Below are positions 16,621-57,541 of a stretch of 64,000 nt of DNA, piece after piece. The number at the start of each line of letters is the position of its first letter. The first letter of the stretch is position 1. Origin of the DNA: Rhizobium sp. Q54 (GTDB taxonomy: Bacteria; Pseudomonadota; Alphaproteobacteria; Rhizobiales; Beijerinckiaceae); contig CAMCUC010000012.1 of the NCBI GenBank assembly GCA_945878875.1, positions 1 through 64,000 on the forward strand, read 5' to 3'. Position numbers and translations under genes: made by a program. The notes below the pieces were generated by a model. That model was not told the origin of the DNA. It saw nothing but the letters and a program-made list of their open reading frames with translations, and did no database searches.

Positions 16621-18834
16621 TTAAGCCTGAAGTTCTAGTGAAAACTCAGGGTGATCACTTTGTATTTCCTGCGATGTTGTATGATTCCGCTCACGGTTCC
16701 GATCTTCGTCTGGATCGTTGTTCCCATCATTCACATCAAGACTAGTTATCGTAAATCCAGCGTCGTCCAGAGCTGATCTTAATGCTTCTTTCATCTCGTT
16801 TAAAGAGTTTGTCGCCTCGATGCTGGAAGTTCTTATGTGGAGGCGTAGCTTCGATCCATCAAGCGCTAACCTGATCAAAATTTGACCAATACCAGGTGGA
16901 TAGAGCTGCATGCGAATCTGGTTCGCACCGTCACGCGCAGCTGCGATAACCTGTCGCTCAAGAGCCCGAAAACGCAAGTCTTCGCTTATTTCCACTGATT
17001 TTGAATTCGGCGTGCTCTCCGGCCCGATATTTGGGGGGGGCGGTCGTAATATCGTTACATTTTGTTGCGTTTTTTCGTGACCACTTGTTTCGATGCTTCC
17101 GTCAGGTGTGGGTAATAATTTCATTGATGACGATCTACTTCGTTCAATCACCTCTTTTGCATCGGGAGCCAAATCCAGATTTGGTCCAATTAATTCATCG
17201 CTGGCTTTTGTTAAAATGATCGGATCTTCAACGCTAGTATTGAGACGTGTAAAAAAAACACTCTTGTTCGAACGCAGTTCTTGCGTCATTGTATTACTGG
17301 GTTGAGCGTCGCTGGCCGGCTCGATATCTAGGTCAGGATTCTGTTGTATCTGAAGTTGTGCCACTTTTGATTGTTGACTTCCTCTTTCAGCAGCTTTCTT
17401 TGCGTTGACCCTCGATTGATCAAATATGCCTTCAGACGATTGTTCTTGAGTAATCAAATTTATCAATTTTGGTTTGTTCAGAATGAGGTGGTCGTTCCTA
17501 TCTTTATTTTGAGCGATAGTCAGCATTGAAGAGGCCTGATTGTTCTTCATTTGCATCATATTGATCGAAACAGCCTCATTTTCTTTTAATACTATGTCTG
17601 TGTCCCCTGTATTGGTTGTTACGGGCAACGCGTCTCGTAGACTCGTCGTCGGCGCAATAAGGTTTTTTGCAGTCAAGCCACTCTTATAACGAGTTTGGTT
17701 TTGTGTGACTCGGAAAATTGTCGGAGGAGTATTCTGGGTTAAATGATCGTTCGGATAGTCAATGTTGACAGCTTCTCGCGATATGTTGCCAGAGCTTTTG
17801 TACTCGACGGTGTCTAATATCGACGCGTGGGAGATCGACGACATATCGATAGCGTTGGTACGTATGCTGTTGTTTGCTACGTGAGAAAACTCTATTTCTG
17901 TCACTCCGCTCTTCTTAGCGTCAGGTGAGCTAACCTCTTTTAAAAACATAGGCTCCGCTTCTTCAGGGTTTCGGATGTTTGCGGATTCTATTTCGGGTGC
18001 GGTATTTGGCTCCGTAAGCGCGTTTTCGTCCGCGCTGCTTAGCGAGGTAGAGGGATTGGGAGAGGTCGGAAAGGTTCTAGTTTTAGTATTTGAAAATATG
18101 ACGTTTTCGTGCTGCACATCGTAAAGGTATTCTTCATCAGCCTTTATGTAATCAAGTGTGTCGGTGTGCGCAGGGGCCGTTGTTATATTTGGATCTTGTT
18201 GTTTAACATTGTCTTTCGTAATCGGTAATACGGTCTGAGCTATATTTTGGAGAATGTCTTCTGTCAGCCTTAGCGACGCAGGCTGCTGTTCTATATCGCT
18301 TTCCTTTGACGTTTCGGTAACATCGTTGTCCGGTTGAGTGCCTTGATTTAATTCAAATTCGTGAACTGGTGTAATCGGATCATTGATCGTGCCGAAAGTA
18401 GCTTGCGGTTCTGTTTCAGCAATGGGCGACGCATACGGTGTGTCCGTAGCGCCTTGTGCGACGATCATAAAGACTTCGAGCTCGTCTTCAGGGTTCTGTC
18501 CGGTACTGGCTGTTTCGGCAGTTGACCTGGTGAGCTCTTCCGCGGATTTTTTGTTTGCGGCAATGGATAGCGCGGTGCTGATTGCGTCGATAATGGCCTC
18601 AACAAGAACAGCCGGTGGACCGAGGTGTGTTTTTGTTTGCGCCAGATTGTCTGCTTGCAGCAAATTAGTACTTCTGGCTTCTTCGTTGCTTACGTTGATC
18701 ACGGTTGCCGTTTCTGCGTAAGCTTCTCCAAAGCTTATCGTGCTGTCATTTTGTGGCAGCAGTTGTCCGTTGTTTGTGAGCACTGGTTCGCTTTGCGAGG
18801 GCAGTGCGCTGATGTTGAGCGTATCCACTATCAT
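16621..18834 (-). CDS. fliK: Flagellar hook-length control protein FliK
   Basis: Long low-complexity N-terminus; conserved 'IRMQLYPPGIGQILIRLALDGSKLRLHIRTSSIEATNSLNEMKEALRSALDDAGF'. Confidence 0.88.
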   Translation of the reverse strand: MIVDTLNISALPSQSEPVLTNNGQLLPQNDSTISFGEAYAETATVINVSNEEARSTNLLQADNLAQTKTHLGPPAVLVEAIIDAISTALSIAANKKSAEELTRSTAETASTGQNPEDELEVFMIVAQGATDTPYASPIAETEPQATFGTINDPITPVHEFELNQGTQPDNDVTETSKESDIEQQPASLRLTEDILQNIAQTVLPITKDNVKQQDPNITTAPAHTDTLDYIKADEEYLYDVQHENVIFSNTKTRTFPTSPNPSTSLSSADENALTEPNTAPEIESANIRNPEEAEPMFLKEVSSPDAKKSGVTEIEFSHVANNSIRTNAIDMSSISHASILDTVEYKSSGNISREAVNIDYPNDHLTQNTPPTIFRVTQNQTRYKSGLTAKNLIAPTTSLRDALPVTTNTGDTDIVLKENEAVSINMMQMKNNQASSMLTIAQNKDRNDHLILNKPKLINLITQEQSSEGIFDQSRVNAKKAAERGSQQSKVAQLQIQQNPDLDIEPASDAQPSNTMTQELRSNKSVFFTRLNTSVEDPIILTKASDELIGPNLDLAPDAKEVIERSRSSSMKLLPTPDGSIETSGHEKTQQNVTILRPPPPNIGPESTPNSKSVEISEDLRFRALERQVIAAARDGANQIRMQLYPPGIGQILIRLALDGSKLRLHIRTSSIEATNSLNEMKEALRSALDDAGFTITSLDVNDGNNDPDEDRNRERNHTTSQEIQSDHPEFSLELQA

Positions 18835-34171: not shown

Positions 34172-34194
34172 GGAAAGCAAATATCCTAAAGATT

Positions 34195-34253
34195 GCGGGC
34201 TGGAAGCCCGCGGTCCAAAGTGCACCTCCATGGACCGCGGGCTTCCAGCCCGC
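34195..34253. repeat. REPIN-like element: perfect 23-bp inverted repeat (13-nt spacer), each arm containing a hairpin
   Basis: GCGGGCTGGAAGCCCGCGGTCCA (34195-34217) and its exact reverse complement (34231-34253). Confidence 0.92.
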
Positions 34254-34321
34254 AAAACGGCGTCAGTCGTTGCTTTGGGCTACAAACAGCCCACGTAAAC
34301 GGCGTTAGCCGCCGCCCAACC

Positions 34322-36000: not shown

Positions 36001-36095
36001 AGCGATCCTCTTGTGGTTTCCTCTGCGCGTCGCGCGCGCCTGCCGCTTATTGCACGCAAGGGGCGAGGCTCGTCAATAATGGTGCTGTTTTAACG

Positions 36096-36893
36096 ATGCC
36101 GTTTGCGCGCCCGGACGTCCGGTCTATATTTGAGGCAACTCTAATTTGGGGGTATACCTTGGACGAGACCATGCGGCGGGCTCTTAAGCCCGGAGATTCC
36201 GAAATCCGTGCGCTGCCTTTGGGCGCCAACACCAAATTCGCACGCCAATTGCTCGGCGACGGCTGCGCGCGTGCGCTCGATATCGGCTGCGGCGAGGGCA
36301 AATTTACGCGCGGGATCGCGGCCTTTATCGGCGAGGTCGTGGGCGTGGACGTGAAGGAGCGCGCGATCTTGAAGGCGCGTTCGGCTGCGGAGGCCGAGGG
36401 CGTGGCGGTGGATTTTCAAATCGCCAGCGGCGAGTCGCTGCCATGGGCCGACGGCCATTTCGACGTAGTGATTTTCTCCAATTCACTGCACCACATGCCG
36501 GACCCGGCCAAAGCTCTGGCCGAAGCCGCCCGCGTGCTGGCGCAAGGCGGGCTGCTTTACGTGATGGAGCCGGTGGCGGCAGGCCATTACCACGAGGCGA
36601 CAAGCTTTGTGAACGACGAAACAATCGTGCGCACGCAGGCTTGGGGCGCGTTGAATTCAATGCTGGGGCAGGGGCTCTCACGCGCGCAGGAAAACCTATA
36701 TCGATCGCGCCGGGTGTTTCCTTCGTTTGAAGACTGGAGGGACGACCAATTGGAGCGCGACGAAAAGCGCCGCACAAAGTTCGACGCCGATCCTGACGGC
36801 GTGAAGACGCGGTTCGAAATGTTGGCCGACAAGGAAGACGGCAAGCTGGCGTTCGATCAGGTGTTCCGGGTGGATTTGCTGACGAAGGCGTGA
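36096..36893 (+). CDS. Class I SAM-dependent methyltransferase
   Basis: 'ALDIGCGEGKFTRGIAAFIGEVVGVDVKERA', 'FDVVIFSNSLHHMPDPAKALAEAARVLAQGG'; start uncertain (ATG 36171 possible). Confidence 0.85.
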   Translation: MPFARPDVRSIFEATLIWGYTLDETMRRALKPGDSEIRALPLGANTKFARQLLGDGCARALDIGCGEGKFTRGIAAFIGEVVGVDVKERAILKARSAAEAEGVAVDFQIASGESLPWADGHFDVVIFSNSLHHMPDPAKALAEAARVLAQGGLLYVMEPVAAGHYHEATSFVNDETIVRTQAWGALNSMLGQGLSRAQENLYRSRRVFPSFEDWRDDQLERDEKRRTKFDADPDGVKTRFEMLADKEDGKLAFDQVFRVDLLTKA

Positions 36894-38784: not shown

Positions 38785-38793
38785 GTTTATTTG

Positions 38794-38863
38794 GCGAGTA
38801 GGCAGTAGGCAGTAGGAAGAAGGAAGAAGGAAGAAGGAAGAAGGAAGAAGGAAGAAGGAAGAA
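38794..38863 (+). repeat. Heptanucleotide array GCGAGTA(GGCAGTA)x2(GGAAGAA)x7
   Basis: Direct reading, constant 7-bp period. Confidence 0.95.
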
Positions 38864-38929
38864 GAAAGGGTTCGTTGCTCTTCCTTCTCCCGCAGGCGAG
38901 AGATCGCGCGCAGCGTGACGGATGAGTGG

Positions 38930-38966
38930 TACTCTACTGCCTATTGCCTACTCCCTACTCCCTCCC
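38930..38966 (-). repeat. Inverted-orientation heptanucleotide array (GGGAGTA, GGCAATA, GGCAGTA units)
   Basis: tactctactgcctattgcctactccctactccctccc. Confidence 0.85.
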
Positions 38967-43716: not shown

Positions 43717-44729
43717 ATGACGTTTAACCACATTATCTCTCTTGCAAGCGCCCATTCCACGGTGCCATGGCTTCGGCAAACGCCCGGAGGTCTTGGCGCG
43801 TTGGGCGGAAATCTTTTCGCGCCGAATGAAGCCCAAGCCGGGACGCTTGTTGTTTACGACGATCTGGCGGGGGGGGCGTCACCTGCGCACCGCGAAGCCG
43901 CAGGATTCTCGTCATCGGCGAGCCGCCTGGGATGAAAACCTACAAGCAAGATTTTATCGCTCAGTTTGGGCTTGTTCTTTCGCCATATTCGTTCGAAACG
44001 CAGGATGTCCCCCTGCGCATCACGCAAACAGGCCTGCCTTGGTTCTATGGTTTGAGGTTCGAAGCCGGGGGTATAACGGTTGGGCAATCGTTCGAGGACT
44101 TGCTCGCCTCGCGCCCTGGTCCCAAAGATAATAAAATCTCCGTGGTGTGTTCAACCAAGTCGAAATTGCCGCGCCATCGGGAGCGCCTCGCTTTTGTGAT
44201 GGCGCTCAAAGATCGCCTGAAGGATAGGCTCGTGATCCGGGGCAGGGGCTTTGAACCCGTGATCGACAAGGGGGAAGCGATTGCGCCGCATCGCTATCAT
44301 CTCGTCCTTGAAAACAATGATCTTGGATGCTTCTGGACGGAGAAACTGGCGGACGCGTTTCTTGGCTGGTCGTTGCCGTTATATGCCGGGACGAAAGCCG
44401 CGCTGGACGATTTCCCGGATGGCTCAATGATTTATCTTGATCTGAACGATGTGCCCTCGTGCGTGGCGCAAGTCGAGCGGATACTTGACGAAGACCCTTA
44501 TGAGAGCCGCCTGCCAGCAATTGCCGCCGCACGCGGAAAGCTGATGCACGAGCATAATTTCTTCGCGCTGATTTCGCGGGAAGTTGAGCGTCTGGCGCCT
44601 GCGGAGCCGCTTGAGCAGCCGCAGGTAGTGCACGCCAACAAGCGCGCAAGCGTCGTCAAGAGTGTGCGCCGGGCATTGAAAAGCAGAGCGATGAATGTTT
44701 TGGCGCGATTGCGCGCAGATAGGGGTTAA
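43717..44729 (+). pseudogene. Glycosyltransferase family 10 (fucosyltransferase-like), interrupted by a -1 shift at a G8 tract; may be phase-variable rather than dead
   Basis: Frame 1: 'MTFNHIISLASAHSTVPWLRQTPGG...TLVVYDDLAGG'; from the G8 (43869-43876) frame 3 gives 'GVTCAPRSRRILVIGEPPGMKTYKQDFIAQFG...HLVLENNDLGCFWTEKLADAFLGWSLPLYAG'. Confidence 0.75.
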
Positions 44730-44733
44730 GTCT

Positions 44734-45552
44734 ATGTCTAGGCTTCGCGATATGAAGCGAAACATCGTGCTTCAAGCTGGAATGGTTATCGACAAGCGCG
44801 CTAATCTATCACAGGTGCGCGAGTTGATTTCGACGCTAAGGCCCGAGCCGCAATCGCTTGTGCGTATCGGTCCGGACAGCGACGGCGGATACCTCGCGCC
44901 AGACGATCTGGATGGCGTTGTTGCGTGCCTGTCTCCCGGCGTATCCACCGAATGCGGTTTTGACCTCATGCTTGCTGAGCGCGGCATCGACATTTTCATG
45001 GCTGACGCGTCTGTAACCGGGCCGCCAACGCCCCATCCCAGATTTTATTTCACGCCGAGTTACATTGAACCATTCAACGGTCAGCAATCTATGACCTTCG
45101 AACGCTTTGCTGATATGGCTCATTTAGCGCATCCGGTTGGCGACTGGTTGTTGCAGATGGACATTGAAGGCGCAGAATGGCGCGTTCTTCTGTCAGCCCC
45201 GGAGAAATATCTCGCTCGCTGCCGCCTGTTGATTATTGAATTTCACGATCTTAATCGGGTGTTCCAGGCATCGCATTTTGATTTAATGGCGAGTGTTTTT
45301 AAACGGCTCCTGAACGACTTCAGATTGGTACACATTCACCCAAACAATGTCTCCAAAGTTTCAGCTGTTGGCGACATTGTCATTCCATCCATTATGGAGT
45401 TCACGTTCCATCGGCGTGACCGGCCTTTTGTTCCCGCGCATGCGCCAGTCTATCCGCATCAGCTGGATCGCGATTGCGTGTCTGAAAAGCCCACGCTTGT
45501 TCTTCCGAGAATATGGCGTACTGCTGAAAGGCGTATCCATCTCGACGGGTAG
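44734..45552 (+). CDS. FkbM-like methyltransferase
   Basis: 'VRIGPDSDGGYLAPDDL...CLSPGVSTECGFDLMLAERG', 'LLQMDIEGAEWRVLL'. Confidence 0.7.
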   Translation: MSRLRDMKRNIVLQAGMVIDKRANLSQVRELISTLRPEPQSLVRIGPDSDGGYLAPDDLDGVVACLSPGVSTECGFDLMLAERGIDIFMADASVTGPPTPHPRFYFTPSYIEPFNGQQSMTFERFADMAHLAHPVGDWLLQMDIEGAEWRVLLSAPEKYLARCRLLIIEFHDLNRVFQASHFDLMASVFKRLLNDFRLVHIHPNNVSKVSAVGDIVIPSIMEFTFHRRDRPFVPAHAPVYPHQLDRDCVSEKPTLVLPRIWRTAERRIHLDG

Positions 45553-45653: not shown

Positions 45654-46381
45654 ATGCGCTTTCCGGCATTCCGCAAGTTTCATCGCCTTCCGCGGTTTTT
45701 CTCTGATTTTGCCGCCTTCAGGAGCGCTGCCGCAGCGGGAGGCGCGCGGATGCCAAAATTGCGAGACGCTCGCGCAATGGTTGAGGATGCGACGCCACGC
45801 ACCGGCTTTGAACCCAATATATCTACCATTGCGGGTGGGCGGCGCGCGAGCTGGCGCGGCGTTCGCCTGACAGGCACGTGGATTTCTCCTCCGCGCTCTG
45901 GTTCGTATCAATCGCTTCCGCAATCTGCCACATCGATCATTACGATTACCGGCCGCCAGCTCTTGAAATGCCAAATGTTGGCGTGGGGGCCTGTGATTTG
46001 CAGCATCTGCCTTTCGAGGACAAATCGCTCGCCTCTATCTCCTGCATGCATGTGGTCGAGCACATAGGGCTTGGTCGATATGGCGATGCAATCGATCCGC
46101 TTGGCGACAGGAAAGCGATGCAGGAATTATCCCGTGTACTGGCTCCCGGCGGAACTTTGTTGTTTGCGACCCCTGTCGGAAAACCGCGCACCGTCTTCAA
46201 TGCGCATCGCATCTACGCCTATGAGGAAATAACGGCTGCGTTCCCGGAGCTGCAGGTTGAGAGCTTTGCGCTTGTTACTGATGGCAAGTACGGCTCGAAA
46301 TTGATATTGGACGCTGATCCGGCATTAGTTGCAGAGCAGAAATATGGCTGCGGCTGTTGGGTTTTTCAGCGGCCTGATTAA
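45654..46381 (+). pseudogene. DUF268/SAM-methyltransferase-like protein with a -1 frameshift near 45811-45817
   Basis: Frame 3 'MRFPAFRKFHRLPRFFSDFAAFR...EDATPRTGFEP' joins frame 2 'QYIYHCGWAARELARRSPDRHVDFSSALWFVSIASAICHIDHYDYRPP...SCMHVVEHIGLGRYGD'. Confidence 0.7.
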
Positions 46382-46382
46382 A

Positions 46383-47282
46383 CTAGGCCGGGAGGCGTAT
46401 CCATCCCGGCGGATAGATATCCCTCGTGTCATGGGTCGCCGTCGCCTGCTTGGAGAACCATGCATCTGGCGCGATCACCAGAGCGTCGGGCCGGGGGTCG
46501 AGCCAGGCGCTCCACCAGCTGAATGTGCTGTTGGCGATGATGTGCGCGCGCGCTTTGCTCATCAGGTACATGTCGTCGTATTCGGATTCGCCGCGCACGA
46601 AATGGGCTTTTGGATGATGAGCGAACATTGCGCGCGCGTGATCGGGATCGTCTGAGAAGACGGATATTTTCTGGATTGCGAACTTGGTTTCCAGTAGCTC
46701 CAGCGCGCTTTCGTAATAGGCGGGCTGCATCAAGCCATGAAAAGCGTTAGCGCCCGAATGCGCGAGGTAATCGCCACGTCGCACGTGCAGCGCCACGCAG
46801 CCCTCGCCGATCTCCTGCGCTTGCGCTCGCGCATATTGCGAGATTGCGCGTTCCAAAGTAAACGCAGCGCGGACCGTATCCTCTGCGCCTGCAAAAAACT
46901 TCGGAGACTGGAAATAGCCGCGCAGATAACAATCGCCTGAAATCTGATGGAAGTCCGGCGTATAATTATAATTGGTTTGGGTAAAAACAGGTCCGCGCCA
47001 GCCAGTGGGGCGGCGGGGTGATCTGGCGCCAAGGAGCTTCGCCGACTGGTGGACAATTTTGTTGAAAGTCCGCTCAAGCGGACTGTCTCTATCCGTGAAA
47101 ACATCTGCGTCAACATTCATCGCTGCGAGGCTAAACTGACGGGCGCCGTCAATGCGCAAGCGTGACGTGTCGAGTTCCAGCTGCGCGCCAAGCCGTTGCG
47201 CAAGCGTTATCCCGGCCGCAGCCTGAAACATCTGGTTGCCGAGTCCGCCGAGCATTTCGACGCGAATTGTTTTATCTTTCAT
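46383..47282 (-). CDS. Alpha-1,2-fucosyltransferase-like glycosyltransferase (GT11)
   Basis: 'VEMLGGLGNQMFQAAAGITLAQRLGAQLELD', 'CVALHVRRGDYL', 'HIIANSTFSWWSAWLDP'. Confidence 0.93.
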   Translation of the reverse strand: MKDKTIRVEMLGGLGNQMFQAAAGITLAQRLGAQLELDTSRLRIDGARQFSLAAMNVDADVFTDRDSPLERTFNKIVHQSAKLLGARSPRRPTGWRGPVFTQTNYNYTPDFHQISGDCYLRGYFQSPKFFAGAEDTVRAAFTLERAISQYARAQAQEIGEGCVALHVRRGDYLAHSGANAFHGLMQPAYYESALELLETKFAIQKISVFSDDPDHARAMFAHHPKAHFVRGESEYDDMYLMSKARAHIIANSTFSWWSAWLDPRPDALVIAPDAWFSKQATATHDTRDIYPPGWIRLPA

Positions 47283-48141
47283 CGTCACGCGTCCTGTCCG
47301 CACGCAGCAAAAGAGGGCGCTTTACGCCAAAGCGGCGCGCAGCGCGATACAGCGCAGATCGCGCCAGGCATTCCAGCCACGCGCCGACCCCCAGCGTTTG
47401 TATCTGCCACGCCATTTTCCGCCTTAATCCTGCTGGGCCGATCCGCCTGCGCCGCAGCAGCTTTTGTATGCCGGTTTCGCGCGCCAGATTGCGTTCGCCG
47501 ATCGCGTCGATCGAGGATGTGGCAAGTACGTTGGCGTCCACTGGCGGCGGTGACATGCCGTAGGTTATCAAACTGAAATCCCACGGGCGTCGCAAGTCTT
47601 CGTCAATTGCGTGTATTGCGATCTTTAATCCCGCCAGTATTTTAGAAGCGCCGTTTTTGGAAATAAGATAGCACCCCATATTATTGGGCACGCGCAGGTA
47701 AGATATCAGCTCTCCAGCCGCCCCCAGATCAGCTTGCGCGACATAGGCGGATTTCGACGGGTTCGACAGCCGCACAATGTCCCAATCAGGCGGCAGATCC
47801 TTGATGTGCGCTATGAACGCGGGCAAGCGCTCGCTGATGTGAAGGTCGTCCTCCATCACGATAAGGCAGTCGTCGTCAGACGCCAGCAAGCCTTGCATAA
47901 TCGAAAGATGGCTGGCGTAAACGCCGATCTCGCCCGGCTTCAGGTTCGAATGGGGGCATCCTTGCGTATCAACAAAGCGTTCGCGCAGTTCAGGCGGGAC
48001 GGCCAATCCCCGTATCGCCTCAAATCGCCGGAAGGGGAGGCCCAGTTCGGTTAGCTGCTGCTCCATGTGGCCCAAGCGATCGGTATCGCTCGCCAAATTG
48101 ATGACGATTACGGGCGGGGGCGTTTGCGCGTCGGGCGGCAT
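47272..48141 (-). CDS. Glycosyltransferase family 25 (LPS-type)
   Basis: 'VIVINLASDTDRLGHMEQQLTELGLPFRRFEAIRG', 'GEIGVYASHLSIMQGLLASDDDCLIVMEDDL'. Confidence 0.92.
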   Translation of the reverse strand: MPPDAQTPPPVIVINLASDTDRLGHMEQQLTELGLPFRRFEAIRGLAVPPELRERFVDTQGCPHSNLKPGEIGVYASHLSIMQGLLASDDDCLIVMEDDLHISERLPAFIAHIKDLPPDWDIVRLSNPSKSAYVAQADLGAAGELISYLRVPNNMGCYLISKNGASKILAGLKIAIHAIDEDLRRPWDFSLITYGMSPPPVDANVLATSSIDAIGERNLARETGIQKLLRRRRIGPAGLRRKMAWQIQTLGVGAWLECLARSALYRAARRFGVKRPLLLRADRTRDDER

Positions 48142-48217
48142 ATTGATCGCAATCTGTTATCTATTGAGCGAGTGGTACATTTATATAAGCTGGAGCGTGA
48201 AATTGAAGGCGCTAATT

Positions 48218-48967
48218 ATGCGAACAGGCTTGAACAAGATAGCGGCCCGGCTGGAGAAGAGTTTCGCTTTGCTTCAAGGCAAAGGGGCCGGCTCGTTCTC
48301 TATAGATGACGAAGTGCGCCTTGCGCTGCGCTTGATGCACGGCGACGAGCTATTTCTTCTCGACGTTGGCGCCAATAAGGGTTTGTGGACCGCTGCGCTC
48401 CTGAAGCAGGCGCCCGGCAGGTTTAGCGCAGCTTATCTCTTTGAGTCCTCAGCGCATAACCTCTCATTGCTGGGCGCGATTGCCGACGCCCGTTTGACTA
48501 TCGTGCCCGCCGCCGTGGGCGCCGTTGCTGGAAGAGGGGTCCTTTATGCGGACGCCCCTGGCTCCGGCCTTGCCTCTTTGACGCAGAGAAACCTCGCCCA
48601 CAAAGGTTTGCGGCTTGATCGCGAAGAGGCTGTCAGCGTGGTGACGATTGATGAATTCGTGAGCGAACGGGGGCTGACGCGCGTGGATTTCATGAAGATC
48701 GACGTTGAGGGCCATGATCTCGATGTCCTGAAGGGTTCTGAAAAATCGCTGCGGAGCGGGCTAATTCGCGCTTTGAGCTTCGAGATGGGCGGGGCCAACG
48801 TCGATACGCGGACCTTTTTCCGGGACTTCTGGGATTTGTTGAGCGCATGCGGTTTTGATCTGTGGAGGGTGTCGCCGACGTTTGGGTTGATCCCGGTGAC
48901 AAGATATATGGAGCGCGACGAGGTGTTCGTCACAACCAATTACATGGCCACGCGGAAGCCCAAATGA
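48218..48967 (+). CDS. FkbM family methyltransferase
   Basis: 'ELFLLDVGANKGLWTAALLKQAPG...VVTIDEFVSERGLTRVDFMKIDVEGHDLDVLKGSE'. Confidence 0.9.
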   Translation: MRTGLNKIAARLEKSFALLQGKGAGSFSIDDEVRLALRLMHGDELFLLDVGANKGLWTAALLKQAPGRFSAAYLFESSAHNLSLLGAIADARLTIVPAAVGAVAGRGVLYADAPGSGLASLTQRNLAHKGLRLDREEAVSVVTIDEFVSERGLTRVDFMKIDVEGHDLDVLKGSEKSLRSGLIRALSFEMGGANVDTRTFFRDFWDLLSACGFDLWRVSPTFGLIPVTRYMERDEVFVTTNYMATRKPK

Positions 48968-56600: not shown

Positions 56601-56619
56601 GGGGCAGTAGGGAGTAGGG
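56601..56619 (+). repeat. Short heptanucleotide remnant (GGCAGTAGGGAGTAGGG)
   Basis: Immediately after the glmS stop codon. Confidence 0.8.
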
Positions 56620-56628
56620 TTCTGTCTT

Positions 56629-56678
56629 CCTTCTCCCGCAGGCGGGAGAAGGTGGGGCGCAAAGCGCGCCGGATGAGG
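56629..56678. repeat. Palindromic intergenic element (CCTTCTCCCG-CAGG-CGGGAGAAGG plus a second small hairpin and GGATGAGGG)
   Basis: Degraded relative at about 38881-38927. Confidence 0.8.
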
Positions 56679-56698
56679 GAGTATTCAGGCGCCGACCC

Positions 56699-57541
56699 TT
56701 ATTCCATCGCCCGCTCCACGGCGCGTTTGATCTCGTCCTTGATCGGCTCGGCGGCTGCAAAAATTTGTTGCGCAGCGAAGAAATCCAGCACGCGGAAGCG
56801 GTCGAGGTCGGGGCGCAGCAACGCGTGGGGCTGGCTTGCTTTGAGCATTTGCGCGGTGATGGCGCCCTGCATGATCTGGGCGGCGCCGAACATTGCCTCG
56901 AATGGGGAAGGGCTTGCGCGCTCGGCCATGACGGGACCGCCGGTGACGTCGCAGGCGATGACGAAGGCGCTGTTCCCCAGCAGGCAGCTATAGGGCAAGG
57001 GATCGGTCACGCCGCCATCCACATAGACCTTGCCTTCGATCTCCACGGCGCGAAACAGGCCGGGAATCGCCATGGACGCGGCCACCGCCGGGGCCAGCGG
57101 GCCAACGTCGAAGACGCGGCTTTCGCGGCCGAAGAAGTCGGTCGCCACCGCGTGAAAAGGCGTCTGCAATTGCTCGAAACGATCCGGCACCGCCTTGGGC
57201 CAGAACAGATCGAGGATGCGTTCGCCATCCAGCAGCACCGGATTGCCAAGGCCGCTGAAGATATCCGTGAAACGGCCAACGCGGGCTCGCAACACACGCG
57301 CCATCAGGTCGGCGCGGTTGCGCACCAGGCTTTGCACATGCGCACGCATCTCGCGCCCCGCCACGCCTGCGGCCCACGCAGCGCCGACCACGGCGCCCAT
57401 CGAGGCCCCAGAGATGGCTGCGGGCCGTAGCCCCATATCGTCCATCGCCTCGACGACGAGGATATGACCCAGCCCACGCGCGCCGCCAGCGCCAAGCGCG
57501 ACCGCGATCCTGCCTGCGTCCAGTTTTTGCCCGGAATCCAT
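56699..57541 (-). CDS. Patatin-like phospholipase (RssA-type)
   Basis: 'VALGAGGARGLGHILVVEAMDDMGLRPAAISGASMGAVVGAAWAAG'; 'DGGVTDPLP'. Confidence 0.92.
   Translation of the reverse strand: MDSGQKLDAGRIAVALGAGGARGLGHILVVEAMDDMGLRPAAISGASMGAVVGAAWAAGVAGREMRAHVQSLVRNRADLMARVLRARVGRFTDIFSGLGNPVLLDGERILDLFWPKAVPDRFEQLQTPFHAVATDFFGRESRVFDVGPLAPAVAASMAIPGLFRAVEIEGKVYVDGGVTDPLPYSCLLGNSAFVIACDVTGGPVMAERASPSPFEAMFGAAQIMQGAITAQMLKASQPHALLRPDLDRFRVLDFFAAQQIFAAAEPIKDEIKRAVERAME

Follow-up and report, generated by a model that had tools for sequence, protein, structure and literature searches.

A GT10-like glycosyltransferase gene split at a run of eight guanines in a surface-glycan locus of Rhizobium sp. 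Q54

Described homopolymer tracts and the interrupted gene

The described systems closest to the locus reported here include the futA and futB genes of Helicobacter pylori, which encode GT10 alpha-1,3/4-fucosyltransferases and carry tracts of 12-13 Cs (PMC2583950). Multiple phase-variable G/C tracts are known from Campylobacter, in C. jejuni mainly G9-G10, and G8 tracts are biased to insertion there (PMC8355987). In Neisseria meningitidis homopolymers of at least 8 residues are mostly variable (PMC5084427), and for BadA of Bartonella henselae slipped-strand mispairing within long repeats has been discussed (PMC8859334). Our literature search revealed no homopolymer-tract fucosyltransferase switch in Alphaproteobacteria.

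The stretch of DNA analysed here (the window) comprises 64,000 nucleotides of one contig of a Rhizobium sp. Q54 genome (GCA_945878875.1). It was compared with the ORFs of three near relatives. The closest one, the DNA of which is 87% identical, is in the following called the sister (G022); its record, labelled Rhizobium sp. Q54 MsE-30apr19-218, is a contig from a metagenome-assembled genome. The others are labelled Beijerinckiaceae bacterium (G073) and Hyphomicrobiales bacterium (G001). To judge from the record names of the relatives, G001 being named after a pond, the window genome, that of an uncultured bacterium, is probably of freshwater origin.

A run of eight Gs occupies exactly positions 43869-43876 of the plus strand and lies early in a glycosyltransferase gene, the halves of which are in different frames, as the preliminary description of this DNA had stated. 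The N-terminal fragment (43717-43935, plus strand) is a 72-aa ORF which starts with the ATG at 43717, is off frame past the G run and ends with a stop codon at 43933-43935. The C-terminal GT10-like segment (43878-44729, plus strand) is open for 283 codons in the other frame, with its first ATG at 43932. The two parts cover positions 1-53 and 49-330, respectively, of one family profile. The intact sister gene is one ORF of 337 aa, which agrees with the length of about 337 aa predicted earlier for the joined ORF. The stop codon of the N-terminal fragment overlaps the ATG of the C-terminal frame (ATGA at 43932-43935). This overlap is probably due to chance, since the sister reads ATA at the place of the ATG.

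Judged by its sequence, the gene encodes a divergent GT10-like glycosyltransferase and forms part of a surface-glycan locus. The matches to the Pfam family Glyco_transf_10 (PF00852) are below the cut-off of 23.9 bits for the window part (16.1 bits) as well as for the sister (15.5 bits), and a homologue from the same family of bacteria (L041) reaches 24.7 bits and thus exceeds it. The Pfam search of the own genome gave no PF00852 match, and the family was subsequently recognised by its own profile. With a profile built from four sequences, the alpha-1,3-fucosyltransferase of H. pylori (PDB 2nzw) was found with an E value of 3.3e-4 over the motif region. An AlphaFold model was made from the intact sister protein and is confident over about residues 130-280 only; the fold matches of this model at places 1-11 are to fucosyltransferases, namely those of H. 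pylori (2nzx, 2nzw), mango FucT13 and human FUT9. Together with the profile match, the modelled fold suggests a C-terminal motif for the binding of GDP-fucose and an alpha-1,3-fucosyltransferase fold, and the GT10-like identity proposed in the preliminary description is upheld. The genome also contains gmd (TIGR01472), and a gmd-like ORF adjoins a distant homologue in G031. The enzyme may use GDP-fucose as donor.

The gene resembles futA and futB in its distant sequence and fold similarity, which is seen in the GDP-fucose-binding half (2nzw/2nzx), and in the G/C run near the 5' end that sets the frame. In contrast to these genes its tract has a length of only 8, the relatives are without a tract, the identity is only about 20%, and the locus contains a second frameshift which is not associated with a homopolymer.

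The G tract in relatives and across the genome

The final bases of the G8 run coincide with a single isolated block of difference, in which GGGGGATTTC of the sister is replaced by GGGGGGGGC in the window. The sister has only G5 where the window has G8; within the block, ATTT of the sister stands against GGG of the window, which amounts to a net loss of one base. The block spans four alignment columns, and the closest further differences between window and sister lie 37 bases upstream and 13 bases downstream. At this site G073 reads GGTGATTTCC and G001 reads AAAGATTTTG; GATTT is common to all three nearest relatives. Frameshifts are absent from the 18 family homologues, as is any homopolymer of at least 7 at the place of the tract, and the sole runs of 7 among them are found elsewhere in the gene of one distant homologue. 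Since the relatives read GATTT, the homologues are without G run and frameshift at this place and the block change is isolated, the G8 run is, as far as the aligned sequences tell, derived and private to the window assembly. Neither simple slippage nor the mere growth of a tract already present accounts for it.

The lesion lies in a loop which varies in length across the family, and therefore no argument from functional residues is possible in either direction. The idea that an essential role falls to the conserved D-F pair at this site was dropped, because neither sequence nor length is constant at this point in the wider family.

G runs of at least 8 are rare in this genome. Only ten are found in 2.84 Mb with both strands counted, and the run at 43869-43876 is the only one of them that disrupts a gene; the remaining G8 runs are either intergenic or situated within intact frames. 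Within 864 kb, G/C runs of at least 8 are depleted, with 4 observed versus about 18 expected.

Two of the other runs are described here in their own right. The second G8 of the window (17033-17040) is located in frame, as C8 coding for prolines, in an intact minus-strand gene of 737 aa, which possibly encodes a flagellar hook-length protein. The sole G9 run seen in the genome (L021 3001-3009, corresponding to L110 5938 and G000:C2:65938-65946) lies just past a response-regulator gene; an intact mutS-like gene with an open frame of 913 codons probably starts about 70 bases further on. A change of this tract could touch the expression of mismatch repair.

The preliminary description had suggested a phase-variation switch by slipped-strand mispairing, according to which the population would contain G8 (off) next to other tract lengths (on), as known for futA and futB. 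The position of the tract early in a glycosyltransferase gene for surface glycan, the variable loop, in which extra glycines could be tolerated, the purifying selection still seen on the gene (see below) and the published behaviour of tracts of at least 8 residues (PMC5084427, PMC8355987) are in line with this suggestion. It is opposed by the private occurrence of the tract, by its origin from a block change instead of run growth, by the neighbouring frameshift without homopolymer, by the depletion of long G/C runs, of which one G run in ten breaks a gene, by the intact mutS-like ORF and by the greater length of the fut tracts in H. pylori. Like the Campylobacter contingency genes of glycan and capsule loci, the window gene has a G homopolymer in a surface-glycan gene; unlike them it belongs to a genome that is depleted in long G/C runs and in which one alone breaks a gene. 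Tracts at the same place in relatives, or an enrichment of gene-disrupting tracts in the genome, as would characterise contingency genes, were not found. We therefore regard the switch as improbable, and the suggestion is not sustained by the comparison with relatives. The preliminary description had also named relatives that lack the G run and carry further inactivating lesions as evidence against a switch. The relatives do lack the run, but their copies are intact and not inactivated, and it is a neighbouring gene, within the window's own genome, that carries the second lesion.

A related idea is that of a young contingency locus, in which a new G8 in the fucosyltransferase-like gene would allow a free-living freshwater relative of the Beijerinckiaceae to toggle a surface glycan. 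By analogy with host-adapted Campylobacterota such a locus might perhaps be driven by phage pressure. This idea, too, has little probability in our view. If a switch were proven, G-tract contingency genes would extend to a free-living alphaproteobacterium.

Ribosomal -1 slippage on the run had been named as a further alternative. Slippage of either the ribosome or RNA polymerase would provide some full-length enzyme, and re-initiation at the ATGA would give a C-terminal protein of 265 aa. An eight-G run can be slippery, the ATGA overlap exists in the sequence, and selection appears intact. However, the sister has neither the tract nor the ATG, no stimulating structure is seen downstream (stem z = +0.39), the re-initiated protein would be without the N-terminal domain, and the break of the methyltransferase gene described below would be left unexplained. 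With the site missing in the sister and this z value for the downstream fold, a programmed frameshift cassette is not recognised, and we consider any form of recoding very improbable.

A second break, selection and the origin of the lesions

Two genes downstream of the GT10-like gene a methyltransferase gene (45654-46381) is divided into ORFs of 137 and 167 aa, compared with an intact ORF of 242 aa in the sister. The N-terminal fragment of this DUF268/methyltransferase gene (45654-46067, plus strand) loses its frame at 45811-45812, where GACGCCC of the sister stands against GAACCC of the window (plus strand, net -1, no homopolymer). The C-terminal fragment (DUF268 / Methyltransf_11; 45878-46381, plus strand) lies in the other frame. 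The FDAQY motif around this lesion is intact in G022, G073 and G001. As is characteristic of recent pseudogenes, the inactivating lesions of both broken genes are absent from the relatives.

An intact FkbM-type methyltransferase gene (44734-45552, plus strand) separates the two broken genes; the best match to it within the genus, in G026, has an identity of 41%. At this place the gene is missing from the sister and G073, and its absence from the sister suggests that the locus is being remodelled. The genes that follow are intact. They encode a GT11 protein of the alpha-1,2-fucosyltransferase family (46383-47303, minus strand), a GT25 LPS glycosyltransferase (47272-48141, minus strand) and a second FkbM methyltransferase (48200-48967, plus strand), which is common to window and sister.

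The frequency of such breaks was estimated from a sample. A comparison of 864 kb of the genome against about 0.8 Mb of G022 gave 255 matched ORFs and 86,853 aligned aa, and the candidate breaks were examined for codon-position signatures and for their relation to start codons and shadow ORFs. Among the approximately 255 ORFs the GT10-like gene and the methyltransferase gene contain the only two convincing breaks, flanked on either side by coding signatures. Two adjacent breaks with none elsewhere in the sample indicate a local cause. A general mishandling of homopolymers by the assembly was rejected, as the frames around the other G8 runs are intact and the sample gave no further convincing break.

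Of the 21 apparent splits, most fall before a start codon, within shadow ORFs or in non-coding DNA. The sequence at the apparent split at 61.5 kb resembles a tRNA gene, and the one at 36081-36149 is intergenic. The reverse case was also observed: an open gene of 365 codons (L122 8585-9679) appears frameshifted in G022 (L156 13476-14548).

No sign of relaxed selection after the lesion was found for either gene, neither by dN/dS nor by branch counts. The comparison of window and sister gives a dN/dS of 0.225 for the C-terminal part of the GT10-like gene and 0.10 for that of the methyltransferase gene; the intact neighbours show values of 0.21 (GT11) and 0.20 (GT25). The value of 0.45 for the N-terminal GT10 fragment comes from 50 codons aligned with the sister and few sites. 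After polarisation with G073, nonsynonymous and synonymous changes in the GT10 part number 7:15 on the window branch and 10:8 on the sister branch, and in the methyltransferase part 3:9 and 7:10, respectively. By this substitution pattern both genes have been under normal purifying selection up to very recently. As a rough estimate, neutrality over more than about one fifth of the window branch would leave clearly more nonsynonymous changes. With no excess of such changes the lesions are either very young or not real: normal selection is expected for a very young lesion and equally for an assembly error.

An error of assembly or consensus would mean that strain variants at a strain-variable glycan locus were joined or mis-called, so that the two frameshifts, separated by about 1.9 kb, would be artefacts and the cell would carry both genes intact. 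The purifying selection along both genes, on both sides of the breaks, is consistent with this, as are the compact form of the two lesions, which are blocks of substitution plus deletion, and the lack of a further convincing frameshift in about 255 ORFs, which calls for a local cause. Contigs are also interrupted nearby in other assemblies. G073 breaks inside the GT10-like gene, where L034 5574-5875 and L036 1-302 overlap by 302 bases and differ at 2 of these 302 positions, as would be expected of strain variants at the locus, and the contig of G001 ends about 220 bases past the gene. The length of the window contig (65 kb), which is clean otherwise, and the intact frames around the other G8 runs of the same assembly speak against an error. 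That both lesions arose in this way is in our view the main rival to a real loss of the gene, though less likely than not.

The reading which we favour, with a likelihood slightly above even, is a very recent loss of function of the GT10-like gene in the surface-glycan locus of this lineage. It is preferred because the relatives are intact, constraint on both genes has remained normal, a second frameshift is present in the locus and no other convincing breaks occur in the sample; that the two breaks adjoin each other is in keeping with one local cause. Next to a G5 a short block would have been replaced, giving the run of G8 with one base lost net, and translation would end after 72 aa. The methyltransferase gene two genes downstream would have suffered an independent net -1 change, in a glycan locus apparently under remodelling, where an FkbM gene that the sister is without lies between the two. 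We infer that the lesions are true DNA changes rather than assembly faults, and their consequence would be an altered cell-surface glycan. Several observations weigh against such a loss. Both lesions appear as substitutions plus a deletion in adjacent bases, which would be unusual for a single spontaneous frameshift, and in the absence of decay nothing independent marks the gene as dead. Furthermore, the assembly is fragmented (91 contigs), and the contig ends of G073 inside the GT10-like gene indicate that the locus is hard to assemble elsewhere too.

A recent loss would place the gene next to the ordinary recent pseudogenes of bacterial O-antigen and glycan islands. It shares with them a small frame-losing change in a variable glycan locus, the gain and loss of neighbouring genes and the intact copies of relatives; it differs by two lesions side by side and by selection which is not yet seen to be relaxed. 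The dead gene and the assembly error, which had been listed as alternatives in the preliminary description, both survive as readings and are ranked above the switch. The sequence does contain the split, and its explanation, recent gene loss or local assembly fault, is ordinary. If the breaks are real, surface-glycan genes are turned over rapidly in a lake bacterium, a common finding and one to be expected. Before a lone G8 at a frame break of a metagenome assembly is taken for a switch, the relatives and the neighbouring genes should be consulted.

Dispersed repeats in the window

A scan of viral contigs revealed no relatives. At 34184-34277 the window contains a palindromic element of about 60-95 bases, dozens of copies of which are found on both strands of G022 and which looks like a dispersed REP-type repeat family. 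A second dispersed repeat (38790-38966 and 56604-56720) has many copies in both G022 and G073. The repeat matches to G022 number 81 among the matches listed, most of them to 34184-34277 or 38790-38966.
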